A DNA stretch of 64,000 nt from an uncultured Thermodesulfobacterium sp. (GCA_938091335.1 CALLJG010000005.1:62001-126000), one strand, 5' to 3'. Shown: positions 43,314 through 63,400, counted from the stretch's first letter. Translations and numbers: made by a program. The notes: generated by a model from the sequence alone, not told the origin.

Positions 43314-44227
43314 TAAATTCTTATTATCATAAACCTACTTTTAAGGCTCTTAAACTTACCATATTAAGTCTAACAGTAAGTATTTTTATTTTTACTTTAA
43401 AACTTTTAGCTTATTTTATAACTAATTCAGTAGCTATATATTCAGATGCTATAGAATCTATTGTAAATATTATCTCTGCCACTATGGCTCTATTAGGCAT
43501 TAAAGTCGCTTTAAAACCCCCTGATGAAGAACATCCCTATGGACATACTAAATTTGAATATCTAATTTCTATTTCTGAAGCTTTTTTAATTATAGGAGCA
43601 TCTTTCTCTATCTTTTGGAAAGCTTACCAAAGTTTTCTCTCCCCAAAACCTTTAGAAAGTATTCAAATAGGATCTTTCTTAGTATTTATTACTATATTCT
43701 TAAATTCATTTCTTTCTTATATACTTTATAAAGGTGGAAAAAGAGAAAACTCACCCATTTTAATTTCTCACGCTTTTCATCTTTTTACGGATGTATTAAG
43801 TACCTTAGGAATAGTGACGGGGGTTTTAATAGCCCAATTGATCAAAATTTTTATATTAGACCCTTTAATTGCATTCATAATAGGTATTTATATTTTGTAT
43901 TTAGGAGGTAAAATTATTAAAGGTTCTACTATTGCACTTCTTGACGTGAATTTACCTTCTGATCAAATAAAATCTATTCAAGACATAATAAATGATACTA
44001 TTAAAAATTATAAATATAAAGATTATAAAATATATGATGCACACGATTTTAAAAGCAGAAGAGCTGGAAGAAAAGGCTTTGTTGAATTTAATCTAACTGT
44101 ATCAGGAAAAATGTCTGTAAAAGAGGCTCACGATTTATGTAATGAGTTAGAAAAAAAAATAACTAATAAATTTCCTGAATTAACAGTGACTATACATGTA
44201 GAACCAGAAAAAGAAGAAAATAACTAA
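43298..44227 (+). CDS. Cation diffusion facilitator (CDF) transporter
   Basis: 309 residues. Six membrane helices; the metal-site motif YSDAIESIVN in helix 2, HPYGHTKFEYL after it, and FHLFTDVLSTLG in helix 5 are CDF family signatures. A cytoplasmic C-terminal domain (about 210-300) follows with DAHDFKSRRAGRKGFVEFNL. It exports Zn2+, Fe2+ or related ions by proton antiport. The first metal-site position (SDAIES) carries Asp, as in CDF generally. It overlaps the ABC permease by 16 bases and ends four bases over the convergent resB. Confidence 0.9.
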   Translation: MGKRLINSYYHKPTFKALKLTILSLTVSIFIFTLKLLAYFITNSVAIYSDAIESIVNIISATMALLGIKVALKPPDEEHPYGHTKFEYLISISEAFLIIGASFSIFWKAYQSFLSPKPLESIQIGSFLVFITIFLNSFLSYILYKGGKRENSPILISHAFHLFTDVLSTLGIVTGVLIAQLIKIFILDPLIAFIIGIYILYLGGKIIKGSTIALLDVNLPSDQIKSIQDIINDTIKNYKYKDYKIYDAHDFKSRRAGRKGFVEFNLTVSGKMSVKEAHDLCNELEKKITNKFPELTVTIHVEPEKEENN

Positions 44228-45504
44228 GCTTCTCTTTCTAATTTTTCAGCTATTTCTTTAAGCTTTAACTTTATAGTATCTCTTTCTCTTTTTGCTATAG
44301 CTCCTAAATTTATTATTATTTCTTTATCTTTGGGTTTTAAATATATCCAAAAAGTTTTAGGTTCAAAAAAATACACTAAAAATAATCCTATTACCATAAT
44401 AATAAATCCTAAATAAACCAAGGGTAAACCAGGGTCCTTTTTCACCTGTAAAACACTCATATATGTTGTTTTAATATCTTTGATTTCCATTTCCAAAATA
44501 CCATCTCTTAAATTTATTTTTGTAGGCCTTCCTTGAATTAAAAAGTTTTCCATTCCTTTTCCCTCTTTTTCATCAAATATAGTAATTTTAGCAATTATTC
44601 CTCCAGGATGTGGCATATAGTCATCTAAGATTAAAAAGTATCTATTCTCTAAAGAAACTGGTATACCCCACTCAAGCTTTCTTTCTAATATATTTTTTTT
44701 ATACATTATTTTTAAGATAAATTGAGGAATTTGGTCATAACTTGCTTGATAAAAAGTAATTTTTTTATACTTAAAAGGGTGATTTACCTTTATTATGGCA
44801 TCTTTGATAAAATTTTTATCAAGTATAGTTATATTAGAAATATATTCTTTTGGAGTCCCATCAGGATATAATTCTATTCCAAATTTATTAAGTTTCACAT
44901 GAAAATCTAAAAAAAAAGACTTTTCCTCTCGCATAGGAATAATTTGATTAGAAGGAATTCCTTCTATTAAATATAAATAACCTCTAAAACCTTTAAGTGC
45001 TCCTATTATAGCTCCAATGAGAATTATAATTAAAGAGAAATGTACTATATATACTGCAAAATAGGCCCATTTATTTAAATCTTTTATAAATAGGTTATCT
45101 ATCTTTTCTATATTTTCAAATCCTAATCTATCATAAATAAATGTTTTAATTCTTGCTAAGTCTTTAACAATTTTTATAGTAATCAAATTAGGTAATTTTT
45201 CTGGATCAATCTCAGAAGGATCTTTCTTAAAAAGTTTTAAGCTAATAGGGAATCTTTTAATAGAGCAAGTAACAAGATTTATTAAAAATAAAAAAAGAGT
45301 CCCCACATACCACCAAGAATGATAAGCATCATTCAAGTCTAAAACAATAATCAATTTACCTAATTTTTCTCCGTATTTCATTAAGTAAAAACCTGTTTTT
45401 TCTCCTTGAGGAATTATAGTTCCAAAAATAGATATTATTCCTAATATAAAAAAGAGAGTCACAGCAAGTTTAGCAGACCCTAGAAAATCAAAAAATTTTT
45501 TCAC
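44224..45504 (-). CDS. resB: Cytochrome c biogenesis protein ResB (Ccs1)
   Basis: 426 residues. The start is a GTG at 45504 with GGAGG five bases upstream. The first membrane helix carries the ResB opening FLGSAKLAVTLFFILGI, a second helix is near 65-85, a third near 150-170, and one near 375-395 flanks the large periplasmic domain. With CcsA it delivers heme and keeps apocytochrome cysteines reduced (system II). CcsA is not in the window. It follows the octaheme cytochrome gene on the same strand, a sensible client. Confidence 0.9.
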   Translation of the reverse strand: MKKFFDFLGSAKLAVTLFFILGIISIFGTIIPQGEKTGFYLMKYGEKLGKLIIVLDLNDAYHSWWYVGTLFLFLINLVTCSIKRFPISLKLFKKDPSEIDPEKLPNLITIKIVKDLARIKTFIYDRLGFENIEKIDNLFIKDLNKWAYFAVYIVHFSLIIILIGAIIGALKGFRGYLYLIEGIPSNQIIPMREEKSFFLDFHVKLNKFGIELYPDGTPKEYISNITILDKNFIKDAIIKVNHPFKYKKITFYQASYDQIPQFILKIMYKKNILERKLEWGIPVSLENRYFLILDDYMPHPGGIIAKITIFDEKEGKGMENFLIQGRPTKINLRDGILEMEIKDIKTTYMSVLQVKKDPGLPLVYLGFIIMVIGLFLVYFFEPKTFWIYLKPKDKEIIINLGAIAKRERDTIKLKLKEIAEKLEREA

Positions 45505-45569
45505 TTTTCCTCCTAATTTTTTCTAAAATTTAAAGGATGATATCATATTTTATAAGTATAGCAAGTTTA

Positions 45570-47057
45570 TTAATTTTTATTTTTGCTATGCAATTTTATA
45601 ATTTTTTTCATATTTTCTAAATTATGTTTTAATTCCCACCAACCAAGTTTAAAAGTAGCATAATCTGGAGCTCCTGTCATAGCAGAGGCATATCTTATAG
45701 AATTAGCATAAAAAAGCCATTGTTTTATCCATAATTGCTCTATATATTCATCAAAAGGATTTTCTTTATTTGCTATCTTTTTATTCCAAGCATTTACTAA
45801 TACCTGTGTAGCTTGAAATACCATTTCATCTGTTTCTTTTATAGTATTTTCAAATTTTGAAAAATGTCCATTTATATAATCTTTAGAATGGCAGTTGTTA
45901 CAAAGGTTTTTCATCTGATCAAGCCTTTTTTGTTGTTCTGACTCTTCAATTAAATATTCTTTAGCTAACTCTTTATTAAAGGTTATAGGTAAAGGTAATC
46001 CTTCTTTATTTTTTATTAAGGAAGTATCTCCTTTCTTTGGTTGAGGATGAGAATAAATAAGACCAAAAATTCTTACCCACAATCTTTCTCCAAAATTATG
46101 AGTTCTTTCAGCAATCACCTCTCCATCTGGACTTACTATAAGACTGTTATGACATACAGCACAAGTAGGAGCTTTAAAATCTTCTCCTAATACCCAAGGA
46201 ACTGAATCAAATTTCCATTCTTTTTCTTTTGAAAAATATATATTTCCATGTTTGCTTTCTTTATATACATTCCAAGCAGGAACATCTGGATCTAAATGAC
46301 ATTGAGCACAAGTGTATGGTTTTCTTGCTATTTCTATAGAAAAACTATGTCTTGGATGACAAGAAGAGCAGGAACCAAGAGTATTATCTGGATTTTCCCT
46401 TCCCACTCCATGATTAGGCCAATTTGTTAAATCAGGAATTTCTATTTCTCCTATAGGAGTTTTTATTTTTTTAAAACCCTTTACTTGCACTCTTGTTCCA
46501 TGACATCCTAAACAAGTTTCATGAAGTGTACTATTAGAAGGTAAAAGTGTAGAAATATTAGTAATTGTTTCAACTAATTTATTATAAACAGGATTTTCTA
46601 AAAGTATTTTTAATGCATAAGCCTTTTTACTTTCTGAATATTCTTTAAATTCCTTAGAATGACAAACCCCACAATCTTTAGGAGATACTATTATATTTAT
46701 TTTAAATCCCATATGGTCAAAGTTGTCTTTATGCAATTGAGAATTTAAACTATGGCATTCAAAACAACCTATCACATATTCAGGATTAATAAAATCTGGA
46801 AACCTTTCTACAGAAATTCTTCTTTCAAGAGGTGATTTTTTAATAGCTACTGAAGGAAAAGTGCGAGCATGTAGGCTTTCTTTCCAGTCTTTTACTATAC
46901 CAGGAGTATAAATACTATGACATCCTATACATTGTTGAGTTTCAGGAGTTATTTTTAAAATCTTTTCTTCTGAATTTAAAGCCTTATTTAAAAACAGCAA
47001 AAAATTTATAAATAATAAAAAAGCTAACATTTTAAATCCTTTTTTAAAATTTTTCAT
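45570..47057 (-). CDS. Octaheme c-type cytochrome of the hydroxylamine oxidoreductase (HAO) family
   Basis: 495 residues. A signal peptide (about 10-28) is followed by eight CXXCH motifs: CIGCH, CFECH, CGVCH, CLGCH, CSSCH, CAQCH, CAVCH and CNNCH. The segment NHGVGRENPDNTLGSCSSCH then RHSFSIEIARKPYTCAQCHL and YKESKHGNIYF is the HAO-family core. Members oxidise hydroxylamine or, in many anaerobes, reduce nitrite or hydroxylamine. There is no ammonia-oxidation context, so a reductive or detoxifying role is favoured, but that is inference. Whether the P460 cross-linking tyrosine is present cannot be judged without an alignment. Shine-Dalgarno GGAGGAG; resB follows. Confidence 0.9.
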   Translation of the reverse strand: MKNFKKGFKMLAFLLFINFLLFLNKALNSEEKILKITPETQQCIGCHSIYTPGIVKDWKESLHARTFPSVAIKKSPLERRISVERFPDFINPEYVIGCFECHSLNSQLHKDNFDHMGFKINIIVSPKDCGVCHSKEFKEYSESKKAYALKILLENPVYNKLVETITNISTLLPSNSTLHETCLGCHGTRVQVKGFKKIKTPIGEIEIPDLTNWPNHGVGRENPDNTLGSCSSCHPRHSFSIEIARKPYTCAQCHLDPDVPAWNVYKESKHGNIYFSKEKEWKFDSVPWVLGEDFKAPTCAVCHNSLIVSPDGEVIAERTHNFGERLWVRIFGLIYSHPQPKKGDTSLIKNKEGLPLPITFNKELAKEYLIEESEQQKRLDQMKNLCNNCHSKDYINGHFSKFENTIKETDEMVFQATQVLVNAWNKKIANKENPFDEYIEQLWIKQWLFYANSIRYASAMTGAPDYATFKLGWWELKHNLENMKKIIKLHSKNKN

Positions 47058-58572: not shown

Positions 58573-58857
58573 ATGCAATGTAAAAGATTACAATCTCTTA
58601 TAAGAGATTGGTATCAAGAGGTTAGAAGTTATACTCTTGCTCCTTTAAAAATGATGGAATTAGTAGAAAAACATATTAAAGCTTGTAAAATTTGTCAAGA
58701 AGATCAAGATCTATCTTTAGAATTGGATCAATTAAGAGAATTAATTAGAGTTCCTCATTCTTTCCCTTCCATAGAAGAAATATCTTCAGAACTAGAAGAA
58801 CCAGAATATACCTATGAAAAAGAAGAAATTGAAGAAATTGAAGAAGAAGAATATTAA
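58573..58857 (+). CDS. Small acidic hypothetical protein
   Basis: 94 residues. A basic, Cys/His-containing N-terminal half (KHIKACKICQEDQD) resembles a small zinc-binding helix of anti-sigma type (HxxxCxxC), but only one CxxC is present. The C-terminal 30 residues are strongly acidic (about half Glu, ending EEIEEIEEEEY). No known family is recognised. No Shine-Dalgarno lies before the ATG and a TATAAA sits only two bases upstream, so the start is uncertain. It ends at a bidirectional terminator. Confidence 0.55.
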   Translation: MQCKRLQSLIRDWYQEVRSYTLAPLKMMELVEKHIKACKICQEDQDLSLELDQLRELIRVPHSFPSIEEISSELEEPEYTYEKEEIEEIEEEEY

Positions 58858-58887: not shown

Positions 58888-59271
58888 TTATTTTTTATGA
58901 CATTCGTTACATTTAGTTGGTGCAGCTTTACCTTGTTCAGTATTTACTTTTTGATGACAATCTATACAATTTTTATGATAAGCTAACATATTCTTTGGTG
59001 CATCTGGAGCCTTTTCAGTTCCTCCCATTAATCCATGACAAACTGAACATTTTTTAACTTCTTTAGTTGGATCCTCTTCTTTATGATGACAAATTTTACA
59101 ATCTATTTTATATTCTGTAGCATGTTTTTCATGTGATAATTTAACAGGTGCCATTTTAGCACCTTCTACTATTATTTCACATTCTGTAGGTATTTGTTGA
59201 GCAATCAAAATAGTTGTACTTATTAAAAAAATACTTCCAAAAATCCAAACTAAAAACTTTTTAATCTTCAT
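58888..59271 (-). CDS. Tetraheme c-type cytochrome (c3-like)
   Basis: 127 residues. A signal peptide (about 5-24, ending near IAQQ) is followed by four CXXCH motifs: CKICH, CSVCH, CIDCH and CNECH, with extra histidines (SHEKHATEY, HHKEED, AYHKNC) spaced as in class III cytochromes for bis-His ligation. It carries electrons in the periplasm, in sulfate reducers usually between hydrogenase or formate dehydrogenase and membrane complexes. It is the last gene of the three-gene redox operon. Shine-Dalgarno AGGAGGTG. Confidence 0.9.
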   Translation of the reverse strand: MKIKKFLVWIFGSIFLISTTILIAQQIPTECEIIVEGAKMAPVKLSHEKHATEYKIDCKICHHKEEDPTKEVKKCSVCHGLMGGTEKAPDAPKNMLAYHKNCIDCHQKVNTEQGKAAPTKCNECHKK

Positions 59272-59316: not shown

Positions 59317-59961
59317 TTAATGTGTTTCTTCATGCTCTTCTGGTTCTTCTTCATATCCAGTTATCATAGCAATAAAATGTGCTAATGGAGTATGACCTAA
59401 AGTAGCTAAATAAAAATGTACTATAATAAAAGCACTAAAAAATATCCATAAAGCAACATGAATTAATGATACAATTTGAATTCCTCCTAAAATTTTTTCT
59501 AAAAAACTAAATTTAACAGGATCCCATAAAACAAGACCTGTAAGAATCTGAAGAGGTATCAAAATAACCATAATGGTTAAATAAGCAACTTGTTGTAAGG
59601 GATTAAATTTATTTTCTGGGGTTGGATGATGAGGATTTTTATCTCCTATCATAATTCCAAAGCCATAATATTTAGCTTGACGAAAAGCCTTTTTAGTAAA
59701 TTCAATAGGTTTCCAAAAGGGAGGAAGATAAATTTTAAAAAACTTTAAAGTAGCAAAATAATAAATAAACCAGATAAAATAATTTGCAAGCAAAATAAAA
59801 CCTGTCCAACTATGAATTTTGACTGCTGTTTTAAAAGACATTAAACCTATTTTATCTACCCACCTTATTTGAAGACCAGTAATAATAAGAATAAGAAAAC
59901 ATATAGCATTTATCCAATGCCAAATCCTTACTGGTATTGGATGTAAATATATTTTTTTCAT
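59317..59961 (-). CDS. Membrane cytochrome b (formate dehydrogenase/thiosulfate reductase gamma-like)
   Basis: 214 residues, four membrane helices. Histidines for two b-type hemes lie in PIPVRIWHWINAICF, VKIHSWTGFILLA, LIHVALWIFFS and IIVHFYLATLGHTPL, the layout of cytochrome b561/FdnI-type subunits. It passes electrons between the quinone pool and the periplasm. It overlaps the 25-heme cytochrome gene by four bases (ATGA), so the two proteins probably form one complex. Confidence 0.88.
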   Translation of the reverse strand: MKKIYLHPIPVRIWHWINAICFLILIITGLQIRWVDKIGLMSFKTAVKIHSWTGFILLANYFIWFIYYFATLKFFKIYLPPFWKPIEFTKKAFRQAKYYGFGIMIGDKNPHHPTPENKFNPLQQVAYLTIMVILIPLQILTGLVLWDPVKFSFLEKILGGIQIVSLIHVALWIFFSAFIIVHFYLATLGHTPLAHFIAMITGYEEEPEEHEETH

Positions 59962-62678
59962 TTTTTATCCTCCCTTCTCTTTCTTCTAATAGGTAGAGTG
60001 ATTATTCTTAAGAAAATATGCCCACCTGCTGCTGCTACTCCTGCGATCACTGCAAGAATAAATAAAGTATCAAGTATATTTATCTTTGAAAGACTTAACA
60101 CATAAAAATCTTTAATATTAGGAATAGACTTAAAAGAATTTAAAGTTGCCCTTTCTAATTCAAATTTTTCTGATTTTTCTCCTAATCTATTAATTTCTAA
60201 CCTTCCCTTAACCAGAGCTTTTGGACTATGACAAATTGCACAATCTTTTATAGCTTCCTTTTTAGAAATTATTTTATGTGCCTCATTCGAATTCTCCATT
60301 ACCAATTTACCTTTCAGTCTAATTTTGGCTTTTTCTTTAAGAGATCCCATAAATTTCCATAATTCATCTTTTTGAATTATTCCATCCTCATTATAATCAA
60401 GCATAGATTTAATTTCTATTGGCTGTTTATTAAAAAGTTTAGAAATTTCTTCAATAGTTAAAGGAGCCTTTTCTAACATCAAAACCAATCTTATAGCCTT
60501 TTCACCTTTGGTATGACAAACTTCACATGAAACTGAACCAAAATGCACATCTACAAAACTTTCTAACTTAAAAGGAGGATTATATAGCCATTTATTATGA
60601 ATTTTTTTAATATTTTTGTCATGACAAATTATACAATTATTATTAAGCTCAGCAATATTAATAGGTAATACTTTGTGAGCATTGTGACAATTGGAGCAAA
60701 CAGGAGCAATTTTTACCCCTTCTTCAAAAACTTTGTAATGTATACTTTCTTTATAACTTTCCTTCTCTTTCTCATGACACCTTATACAAACTTCATATTT
60801 TAATATAGGATTAGGAGTAATTTTAGTAACATTGTGATAGCCATGACATTTGACACAATCAGGAGCATCTTTATTACCTTTTAAAACAGCCATAGCATGA
60901 ATACTGGCATTATATTCTGTAGATTCTTTTTTATGACATTGGTTACACATTTCTTGAGCCTTCTCTCTATATTCACTTATGGACTTAAAACTTCTTATAG
61001 GATGCATTTGGAGAGAAAAGCCAATATGACATTGAGAACATTTTAAATCTTTATGTGCAGAAGTCAAAATCTGTTTTTCATCTACTTTTACTGATAAAAC
61101 TTCTCCATTTTCCATTTTTTTAACTAAACTCATAGAATGACAATTCATACAATACTTATTTTCTGGAACCCCTTTAGCCATCTTTAACGATTTTACATTA
61201 TGATATCCATGACATTCAATACAAATAGCTGTTTTAGAAACAGCATAATGTGTAGGATTTTTCTTAAGTTCTTCTTCAGTATGACAACTCTGACAGATAC
61301 TTTTTGAAAGATTTATAGTATACTCTTTTTTGTTTTTAAAATTATAACTGGGATGTTCTCTTTTTGAAAATCCTTTATGACAAACTATACACTCAAATTG
61401 TTTATGCACAGATTTTTGAAGTTGAGATAAATCAACTTTTAAATTTATCTTCTCTTGACTTGGTAAAGTTTTAATCATATCTAATTTATGACAATACATA
61501 CAATATTCTTGATATCTTAATCTCTCTCTCCATTCTCTAACAGCCTGATTTTTATGATATCCATGGCAATCCACACAAATAATATTTTTTAATTCTATTA
61601 CTTTAGCATGCCCTTTGTGTTTAGAAATTGCATCTTTAGGATGACATCTAAAACACCCAGATGAAATTTTCTCTGTATAGGCTCTTTTACTTTCTATTCT
61701 CATAGGACGGGGGTGATTAGAAAAATTAATTCCCTGATGACACACCCAACATCCTACATCTCCATGAACAGTTTTATAAAAATCTTCTTTGTTTATATAA
61801 AGAGACATTTCTTCTCCACTTGGAAGAACCTTAGGAAGTCTTTTTATAGAATGACACCTCAAACATTTTTCAGTCTCTTTCTTCCATTCAGCTCTTGATT
61901 TAATGTAGTGACTTCCATGGCAACCAAAACATACCATTCTATCTTCCTTCAAAAACCCTTTATGAATTGATGATAAAGTATTTAAAGGATGACAATTAAG
62001 ACAATTTTTAAATATTCCTTTAGCATATTCCTGTTTAGTTGATATTTGAGTTGGAATAGGATGGTTAGCTGGGTCTATATAATTATGACAAAAAAGACAA
62101 CCTATTCTCCCATGAATTGAATTAAAGAATCTTTTTTCTACATAAAGATACATTATCTCTTTATTAGGAAGAATCTTAGTTGAAAATCCCTTAACAGAAT
62201 GACATTCTAAGCACCCCTCTGCTATCTTTTTCAATTCAACCATAGGTTTAATATAGTGAGATCCATGACATTCTGAACAAGATATTTTTCCTTCTTTAAG
62301 AATATTTTTATGAATAGGAGATAAGCCATCTTGTGGATGACAATCTAAACAACTTTGAGAAACTTTTTTAATATATTCTTTTTTACTCCCTATTTTCTCT
62401 GGTCTTGGATGTATAGCTGGCTTTATATCTTTATGACAATCAGTACAACTAAAACTACCATGTATAGATTCCATAAAATCTTCTTTGTTTATATAAAGAG
62501 ACATTTCTTCTCCACTTGGAAGAACCTTAGGAAGTCTTTTTATAGAATGACACCTCAAACAATTACTTTCACTTTTTGCAAAAGAAATTTTTTCAGAAAC
62601 AGAAAATAAATATAAACTTATTAAAAAAGTTAAAAAACATATTCCTATTAAAAAATATAAAAATTTATTTAATTTCAT
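59958..62678 (-). CDS. Membrane-anchored multiheme cytochrome c, 25 CXXCH motifs
   Basis: 906 residues with 25 CXXCH motifs by direct count. An N-terminal signal/anchor (about 5-26) and a C-terminal helix near 870-892 followed by RRKRRE place it in the periplasm anchored to the inner membrane. The first 20 hemes fall into five tandem four-heme units of about 116 residues, each ending CxxCHGxH; four more hemes and one late heme (CAICH) follow. Between the last two is an EF-hand loop DYNEDGIIQKDE. It very likely carries electrons from or to the quinone pool with the adjacent cytochrome b. Promoter and AGGAGG site are clear. Confidence 0.92.
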   Translation of the reverse strand: MKLNKFLYFLIGICFLTFLISLYLFSVSEKISFAKSESNCLRCHSIKRLPKVLPSGEEMSLYINKEDFMESIHGSFSCTDCHKDIKPAIHPRPEKIGSKKEYIKKVSQSCLDCHPQDGLSPIHKNILKEGKISCSECHGSHYIKPMVELKKIAEGCLECHSVKGFSTKILPNKEIMYLYVEKRFFNSIHGRIGCLFCHNYIDPANHPIPTQISTKQEYAKGIFKNCLNCHPLNTLSSIHKGFLKEDRMVCFGCHGSHYIKSRAEWKKETEKCLRCHSIKRLPKVLPSGEEMSLYINKEDFYKTVHGDVGCWVCHQGINFSNHPRPMRIESKRAYTEKISSGCFRCHPKDAISKHKGHAKVIELKNIICVDCHGYHKNQAVREWRERLRYQEYCMYCHKLDMIKTLPSQEKINLKVDLSQLQKSVHKQFECIVCHKGFSKREHPSYNFKNKKEYTINLSKSICQSCHTEEELKKNPTHYAVSKTAICIECHGYHNVKSLKMAKGVPENKYCMNCHSMSLVKKMENGEVLSVKVDEKQILTSAHKDLKCSQCHIGFSLQMHPIRSFKSISEYREKAQEMCNQCHKKESTEYNASIHAMAVLKGNKDAPDCVKCHGYHNVTKITPNPILKYEVCIRCHEKEKESYKESIHYKVFEEGVKIAPVCSNCHNAHKVLPINIAELNNNCIICHDKNIKKIHNKWLYNPPFKLESFVDVHFGSVSCEVCHTKGEKAIRLVLMLEKAPLTIEEISKLFNKQPIEIKSMLDYNEDGIIQKDELWKFMGSLKEKAKIRLKGKLVMENSNEAHKIISKKEAIKDCAICHSPKALVKGRLEINRLGEKSEKFELERATLNSFKSIPNIKDFYVLSLSKINILDTLFILAVIAGVAAAGGHIFLRIITLPIRRKRREDKK
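61779..61865. repeat. 87-bp perfect direct repeat, copy 1
   Basis: Identical to 62475-62561, 696 bases away. It encodes the start of the third tetraheme unit of the 25-heme cytochrome. Perfect DNA identity between units whose flanks have diverged suggests recent duplication or gene conversion. Confidence 0.9.
62475..62561. repeat. 87-bp perfect direct repeat, copy 2
   Basis: Identical to 61779-61865. It encodes the start of the first tetraheme unit of the 25-heme cytochrome. Confidence 0.9.
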
Positions 62679-62848: not shown

Positions 62849-63400
62849 TTATTTTAAAATCTTCAAAACTATATTTGCTTTTAACAAACTTTTACAATGA
62901 TCACAAAAATATTTATCTTTTCTATCAGTATCTAAAATGGAGTTAGAAAAATACATCACACATTTTGGATTCTCACAATGGGGTAAATAAAATAGATGCC
63001 CTAATTCATGGGTTGCTTCTTTCAAAATCCTTTCCAAAAATAATTTTTCATTTGGTTTTTGCCTATAAAACTCAGGTCTCAACCTAACAAGAGAAATTAC
63101 ACCTATTCCTGATCTTGGATCAGCTTCTCCAAATATAAAATTCAAACCTTTAGCATATAAATCTACATCTACAATAAGAAGCCATTTTTCATTAATATTT
63201 TTTTTAAAACCTCTTACATTATTAATAATAACTTCAGCTAAATATTGGTTTCTTTTCACATCATAAGCTTGGCTAAAATCAATAGATAAAGAAGAAATTT
63301 CTACTTCTGAGAAAAAGGTCTCCTCTAAGTGCGACTTTAATTTATAAAGAAATTCCTTTTTTAACCCACAAAAGATAAATTTAATTTCTATTTTACCCAT
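62849..63400 (-). CDS. amzA: Archaemetzincin-type metalloprotease
   Basis: 183 residues. The zinc site HELGHLFYLPHC with the four-cysteine set (CENPKC, VM, then CDHC) matches the archaemetzincin signature HExxHxxGxxHC...CxM...CxxC, except that the conserved glycine after the second zinc ligand pair is Tyr here. The spacing to the last CxxC is 16 residues against the usual 17. Family members are zinc proteases of unknown role, frequent in archaea. The ATG is about four bases from the predicted transcript start, so it may be leaderless. Confidence 0.87.
   Translation of the reverse strand: MGKIEIKFIFCGLKKEFLYKLKSHLEETFFSEVEISSLSIDFSQAYDVKRNQYLAEVIINNVRGFKKNINEKWLLIVDVDLYAKGLNFIFGEADPRSGIGVISLVRLRPEFYRQKPNEKLFLERILKEATHELGHLFYLPHCENPKCVMYFSNSILDTDRKDKYFCDHCKSLLKANIVLKILK

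Follow-up and report, generated by a model that had tools for sequence, protein, structure and literature searches.

Complexes of the CbcBA kind couple a b-type subunit, CbcB, to a c-type subunit, CbcA, in a quinone-linked assembly at the inner membrane (PMC10553843, PMC11434368, PMC12307469). The Geobacter complex is described as passing electrons from quinol to extracellular acceptors (PMC12307469), and the reverse direction has been proposed only for Seep-SRB2 (PMC10553843). Where hydrogenases have no membrane subunit, the transfer of electrons from cytochrome c3 to menaquinone is served by Qrc (PMC6303296). How H2 electrons reach the quinones of sulfate reducers that have a soluble periplasmic hydrogenase and no Qrc is an open question.

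Here we analysed a locus in a window of 64,000 nucleotides from an uncultured Thermodesulfobacterium sp. (GCA_938091335.1 CALLJG010000005.1:62001-126000), in which a sequence-only reading had pointed out a 25-heme cytochrome. A literature search combining Thermodesulfobacterium and CbcA returned nothing. Together the results indicate that the protein is probably the c-type subunit of a membrane-bound, CbcBA-type oxidoreductase between menaquinone and cytochrome c, in which the usual 7 or 13 hemes have become 25, and that the complex probably serves the transfer of H2 electrons to menaquinone.

Architecture and predicted heme coordination of the 25-heme cytochrome

The gene lies at 59958-62678 on the minus strand, as do all parts of the locus described below unless noted, begins with ATG and encodes a c-type cytochrome of 906 aa with an N-terminal tetraheme array followed by a CbcA-type core. 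The protein contains 25 CXXCH motifs, the number given by the sequence-only reading; when the same residues were shuffled, 0.17 such motifs arose on average and never more than 2. Fifty of its 51 cysteines are inside these motifs, and the sole non-heme cysteine is Cys14. Orthologues with 25 hemes were found in three further genomes (G004, G005 and G009).

Hemes 1-20 fall into five tandem tetraheme units of 116, 116, 121, 117 and 121 aa, each ending in CxxCHGxH, in agreement with the original description. The units are U1 (aa 38-153, hemes 1-4; 62220-62567), U2 (aa 154-269, hemes 5-8; 61872-62219), U3 (aa 270-390, hemes 9-12; 61509-61871), U4 (aa 391-507, hemes 13-16, the first of the 13-heme core; 61158-61508) and U5 (aa 508-628, hemes 17-20, within the conserved core; 60795-61157). 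Spacings from motif start to motif start are 38-32-24-22 in both U1 and U2, 38-32-26-25 in U3, 37-32-24-24 in U4 and 37-31-30-23 in U5. Units U1-U3 share 38-51% identity with one another, whereas U4 and U5 are more divergent, with 24-35% identity to the other units. Thus the five units are homologous but unequal.

The remaining hemes, 21-25, form a separate pentaheme domain (aa 629-820; 60219-60794) homologous to PDB 28pb, in which a gap of 95 residues precedes heme 25. This linker carries an EF-hand-like segment (aa 759-777; 60348-60404) that matches PF13202 with an E-value of 0.007, below the cut-off of that model, and contains an Asp that is invariant in the alignment of the C-terminal domain profile A3. 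The pentaheme domain is followed by a membrane helix (about aa 868-893; 60000-60077) and a basic tail. This helix carries a His and, four positions on, an Arg, both kept in nearly all CbcA-type c subunits; in the window they are His887 and Arg891 (aa 887-891; 60006-60020), on the predicted cytoplasmic side, and they may provide a heme b ligand or a quinone site.

The protein had been described as anchored at both ends. The C-terminal helix is clear, but the N-terminal segment (aa 1-36; 62571-62678), assigned by hydropathy and sequence and hydrophobic over aa 7-27, may be either an uncleaved anchor or merely a signal peptide. In relatives where the gene is split, the proteins corresponding to the N-terminus of the 906-aa protein begin with ordinary signal peptides.

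Outside the CXXCH motifs the protein has 27 histidines. Each tetraheme unit contributes four and the C-terminal domain five; U3 has an additional one, and the membrane helix holds the last. The four 25-heme orthologues keep the full set, and 25 of the 27 fit one distal ligand for each heme, leaving over the extra U3 histidine and His887. Every heme is thus predicted, from counting and conservation, to be bis-His, and a conserved second histidine for each heme makes the protein look like a carrier and not an enzyme. A terminal reductase or other enzyme with a catalytic heme, similar to NrfA or OTR, would draw support from profile matches to NrfB, DmsE, NrfH and related cytochromes. However, all of these matches are partial, those to NCBIfam models fall below their cut-offs, and the second histidine leaves no open coordination site predicted at any heme. 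With 25 conserved candidate distal histidines, we regard a catalytic role as highly improbable.

An AlphaFold model of the 906-aa protein, calculated with the hemes omitted, reached a pLDDT of 70 and a pTM of 0.41, and a fold search with this poor, heme-less model gave no match at E <= 0.001.

The locus and its relation to known systems

The gene for the 25-heme protein is followed by that for a membrane cytochrome b of 214 aa of the Ni_hydr_CYTB/b561 type (59317-59961), whose start overlaps the end of the multiheme gene by 4 bp, and next downstream by the gene for a tetraheme cytochrome c3 (58888-59271). These are the neighbours that had been claimed, a quinone-linked cytochrome b and a tetraheme c3-like carrier. 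The cytochrome b matches PF01292 (6.8e-28), and its profile matches FdnI (1kqf, 2.5e-7) and HyaC (4gd3). It keeps four histidines (His15, His50, His168 and His182), enough for two b hemes, and together with the C-terminal helix of the 25-heme protein it would form a quinone-reactive membrane part. A search by family for the other cytochromes of this genome, c3 included, identified the operon c3 as the sole c3 that is free-standing, that is, free of HmcA.

Wherever the locus exists in the genus, the order is trpS, a small acidic protein, the c3 in most cases, the cytochrome b and the multiheme gene; in two genomes (G008 and G002) the complex is present without the operon c3. The acidic protein (58573-58857, plus strand), of 91-94 aa with a CxxC motif, is encoded convergently with the c3 gene in the same place throughout the genus and has no match in Pfam or NCBIfam. 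An archaemetzincin metalloprotease gene adjoins the cytochrome locus in most Thermodesulfobacterium genomes (62849-63400, minus strand, in the window) and also adjoins 13-heme core-duplicated homologues in another family (L044:9846-10421, L092:5120-5692 and L094:4957-5526); the protease may act in maturation or turnover. Elsewhere in the window, upstream of a ResB-like protein, a further multiheme cytochrome of 495 aa (44224-47057, minus strand) matches PF13447 and, weakly, hydrazine dehydrogenase.

The closest named match was in a T. geofontis MAG (73% identity), the single locus returned by a scan of genome contigs, and a scan of viral contigs found no relative. The 906-aa protein matches PDB 28pb, a 278-aa 'Cytochrome c', with an E-value of 6e-34 for profile A1. 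This match is confined to the C-terminal domain and a portion of a single unit, and no characterised subunit matched over the full length. In another member of the phylum, a 7-heme protein (L048) matches 28pb over nearly its whole periplasmic part (5e-104), and its gene sits directly before a cytochrome b gene. From gene order we regard both 28pb and the L048 protein as putative CbcA proteins. Profile A3 aligns the core in the window with the 7-heme L048 protein and with 13-heme forms, and detects the core in 45 of the 395 genomes of the phylum that were surveyed. In the loci read, a cytochrome b of the same type is adjacent in nearly all, once as a fusion. Relatives have 7 hemes, 13 where the entire core is duplicated (two A3 matches per ORF), or 13 of the unit type.

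In the unit-type 13-heme homologues (family f27; L096, L097 and L099) the motif spacing, 31-24-25-38-32-30-24-30-22-35-99, is that of the last hemes of the 25-heme protein and the layout is that of its end. In a cytochrome b tree their cytochrome b is the nearest outgroup, at a node with weak support. Unlike the 25-heme protein, these homologues lack an N-terminal array, and neither an array gene nor a c3 gene lies beside them.

On the basis of the pair layout described in the literature, the relation to 28pb and the gene order, we call the locus CbcBA-type, an assignment that we consider likely. The locus shares with CbcBA (Geobacter Cbc5; 28pb) the pentaheme part, the linker, the isolated last heme, the C-terminal helix with its conserved His and Arg, and the adjacent Ni_hydr_CYTB/b561 cytochrome b. 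It differs in its heme number (25, against 7), in its five tetraheme units, in its dedicated operon c3 and, likely, in the opposite direction of electron flow. With 25 hemes and not seven, the protein is a variant of the CbcBA type and not CbcA itself; 13-heme homologues are common and heme number varies throughout the family. The core and its cytochrome b are of an already known and widespread kind, and the enlargement to 25 hemes is the variant.

Other large multiheme systems resemble the locus less. The sequence-only reading recognised no standard Hmc, Tmc or Qrc complex; the locus does differ from all three, but the CbcA-type kind was missed. Like HmcA, the protein is periplasmic and has many hemes and c3-related domains, yet the HmcA model does not match it, and a true HmcA with Hmc-type neighbours is encoded elsewhere in the genome (G000:C5:26429-28120, 487 bits). 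The operon c3 scores 51.9 against a TmcA cut-off of 114, and no TmcBCD-like neighbours were seen. The locus shares with QrcABCD of Desulfovibrio the proposed job of moving electrons from c3 to menaquinone for hydrogenases without a membrane subunit (PMC6303296), but lacks the molybdopterin-like, FeS and NrfD-like subunits, and no QrcA occurs in the genus. PF22113, an OmcA/MtrC model, matches the 906-aa protein; however, a C-terminal membrane helix takes the place of a lipoprotein signal, Cys14, which lies in the N-terminal hydrophobic stretch, lacks a typical lipobox, and none of the genes of the locus was recognised as a porin.

Growth of the array by tetraheme modules

The 13-heme core (U4, U5 and the pentaheme domain) is always there where the locus exists in Thermodesulfobacterium, and up to three tetraheme units are added to it. 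In some species these N-terminal units are encoded by a separate upstream gene with 12 hemes (G010, G013 and G007, the last with a frameshift-like break inside its 13-heme gene, for which the module total is not trusted) or with 8 (G002). In others they are fused to the core, giving 17 hemes (G012, where the array is at a contig end, as it is in G001, and neither total is trusted), 21 (G008) or 25 (the window, G004, G005 and G009). The split genes might be taken for assembly errors; we reject this for the 12+13 form, which is found in two genomes that each consist of a single contig (G010 and G013), with a signal peptide encoded by both genes.

What other species encode as a separate 12-heme gene is the counterpart of units U1-U3. 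A tree of units places U3 of the fused proteins beside unit 3 from these 12-heme genes, and U4 and U5 of the fused proteins beside the core units of the split species; fusion may have occurred once or twice. The nearest outgroup in a cytochrome b tree, whose support is weak at that point, consists of three genomes with a bare 13-heme core and no array gene beside it (G064, G101 and G387). Thus the N-terminal array was probably acquired later, within this genus.

Exact repeats between units were found in three genomes: 87 bp between U1 (62475-62561, minus strand) and U3 (61779-61865, minus strand) in the window, 104 bp between U1 and U2 in G009, and 79 bp in G010. Such repeats indicate that gene conversion has recently taken place among the units, the 87-bp stretch being the presumed tract. 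Growth by unit duplication, as first suggested from the window, is supported by the variable number of units, by the exact repeats of 79-104 bp and by outgroups with fewer units.

Two observations concern the surroundings of the locus in other species. In split-form species a phenylacetate-CoA ligase-like gene lies between the array gene and the archaemetzincin gene (L037:11768-13042, L039:11658-12932, L041:6046-7338 and L042:11224-12498), and in G012 genes near the locus encode two 12-heme cytochromes whose motif spacing is different and shorter (L036:6923-8723).

Module number differs among close species while the neighbours are not obviously changed, which suggests that exact length is non-critical. 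This, with hemes that all appear bis-His, would suit a role in which the extra modules store electrons close to the membrane and buffer intermittent H2 with no defined end-to-end path. The operon nonetheless retains the cytochrome b and usually the c3, which marks the protein as a component of a pathway, and storage alone would leave the conservation of the core unexplained. We therefore consider such a role improbable.

Proposed direction of electron flow and role

A soluble periplasmic [NiFe] hydrogenase would oxidise H2 and pass the electrons to c3; the operon c3 would shuttle them to the 25-heme chain, to which tetraheme modules would have been added at the N-terminal end, far from the membrane. 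The periplasmic heme chain would gather the electrons and deliver them to the two b hemes and from there to menaquinone, which would supply Qmo/Apr in sulfate reduction. In this way the complex would take the part played by Qrc in Desulfovibrio. With a quinone site facing the cytoplasm, as in formate dehydrogenase-N, it would be electrogenic. That electrons from H2 enter menaquinone in this direction is the reading we judge reasonably probable.

Several results favour this role. The operon of the full-length periplasmic-type NiFe hydrogenase encodes only a small (Tat-type) and a large subunit, with neither a cytochrome b nor a C-terminal anchor found. QrcA occurs in none of the 30 family genomes examined, and the same model detects Qrc in other parts of the phylum; outside the genus, QrcA exceeds its cut-off in 1 of 38 genomes with the core, compared to 5 of 17 core-less relatives in the phylum, a comparison that carries no correction for kinship. 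Each of the 11 genomes that have the complex also encodes the hydrogenase, which is missing from both near-complete genomes that lack the complex (G003 and G006); this co-occurrence gives p=0.033 by Fisher's test across 14 genomes, in which the joint absence may represent one loss event. In one genome (G011, 70% complete) the hydrogenase is present and the complex was not found. The absence of a membrane subunit, the presence in the operon of the only free c3, the absence of QrcA and the joint absence of hydrogenase and complex together favour the H2-to-menaquinone role. In all genomes that were read, the genes of the two-subunit NiFe hydrogenase have an aldehyde ferredoxin oxidoreductase-like gene as a neighbour (L140:9895-11868, L143:9660-11621 and L174:3216-5195).

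The dsrA model exceeds its cut-off in 13 of the 14 genomes, which indicates that all are sulfate reducers, with the incomplete G011 perhaps excepted, and the only donors used by T. geofontis are H2 and formate (PMC3624685). Hmc exceeds its cut-off in nine of the 14 genomes, that of the window included, and is a possible parallel route for c3 electrons in those nine. G008 (99% complete) has the hydrogenase and the complex, but no Hmc, Qrc or c3 above cut-off.

The same complex run in the other direction would oxidise menaquinol and send electrons through the 25-heme chain across the periplasm to outer-membrane or extracellular acceptors such as sulfur, Fe(III) or partner cells. The Geobacter CbcBA, a likely homologue, is described as working in this way (PMC12307469), T. 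geofontis also reduces elemental sulfur (PMC3624685), and a chain of 25 hemes could be long enough to reach through much of the periplasm. On the other hand, the donors of T. geofontis are H2 and formate, and no porin or outer-membrane conduit gene was recognised beside the locus in the genomes read. Furthermore, the two near-complete genomes that have no periplasmic-type hydrogenase also lack the complex, a gene profile that resembles the one published for the DIET partner Ca. T. torris, which has no hydrogenases (PMC9539880). For Ca. T. torris, cytochromes with up to 26 motifs have been reported (PMC9539880). That G003 and G006 lack the complex speaks against a role in DIET, and we consider quinol oxidation unlikely overall. 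The complex tracks the hydrogenase, and for this reason an extracellular or interspecies wire is not favoured by the evidence; "molecular wire", the term originally applied to the protein, is a fair structural description.

We return to the transfer of H2 electrons to menaquinone as the preferred role. A further-reaching possibility, which we put forward tentatively and with less confidence than the role itself, is a wire whose length is adjustable in evolution, with tetraheme cassettes added, lost, converted and transferred from a separate gene to the core gene or back, in an inner-membrane complex that may cross the periplasm and that replaces Qrc for H2 electrons. The genus and its relatives provide a natural series, from 13 hemes in the outgroup to 17 (at a contig end), 21 and 25 in Thermodesulfobacterium, with split forms of 8+13 and 12+13, shaped by module duplication and gene conversion, and this series offers a test of whether wire length alters electron transfer. 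Together our results make the complex the best candidate for the missing H2-to-quinone link in Thermodesulfobacterium, and the locus a concrete, testable candidate for that route in a thermophilic genus.
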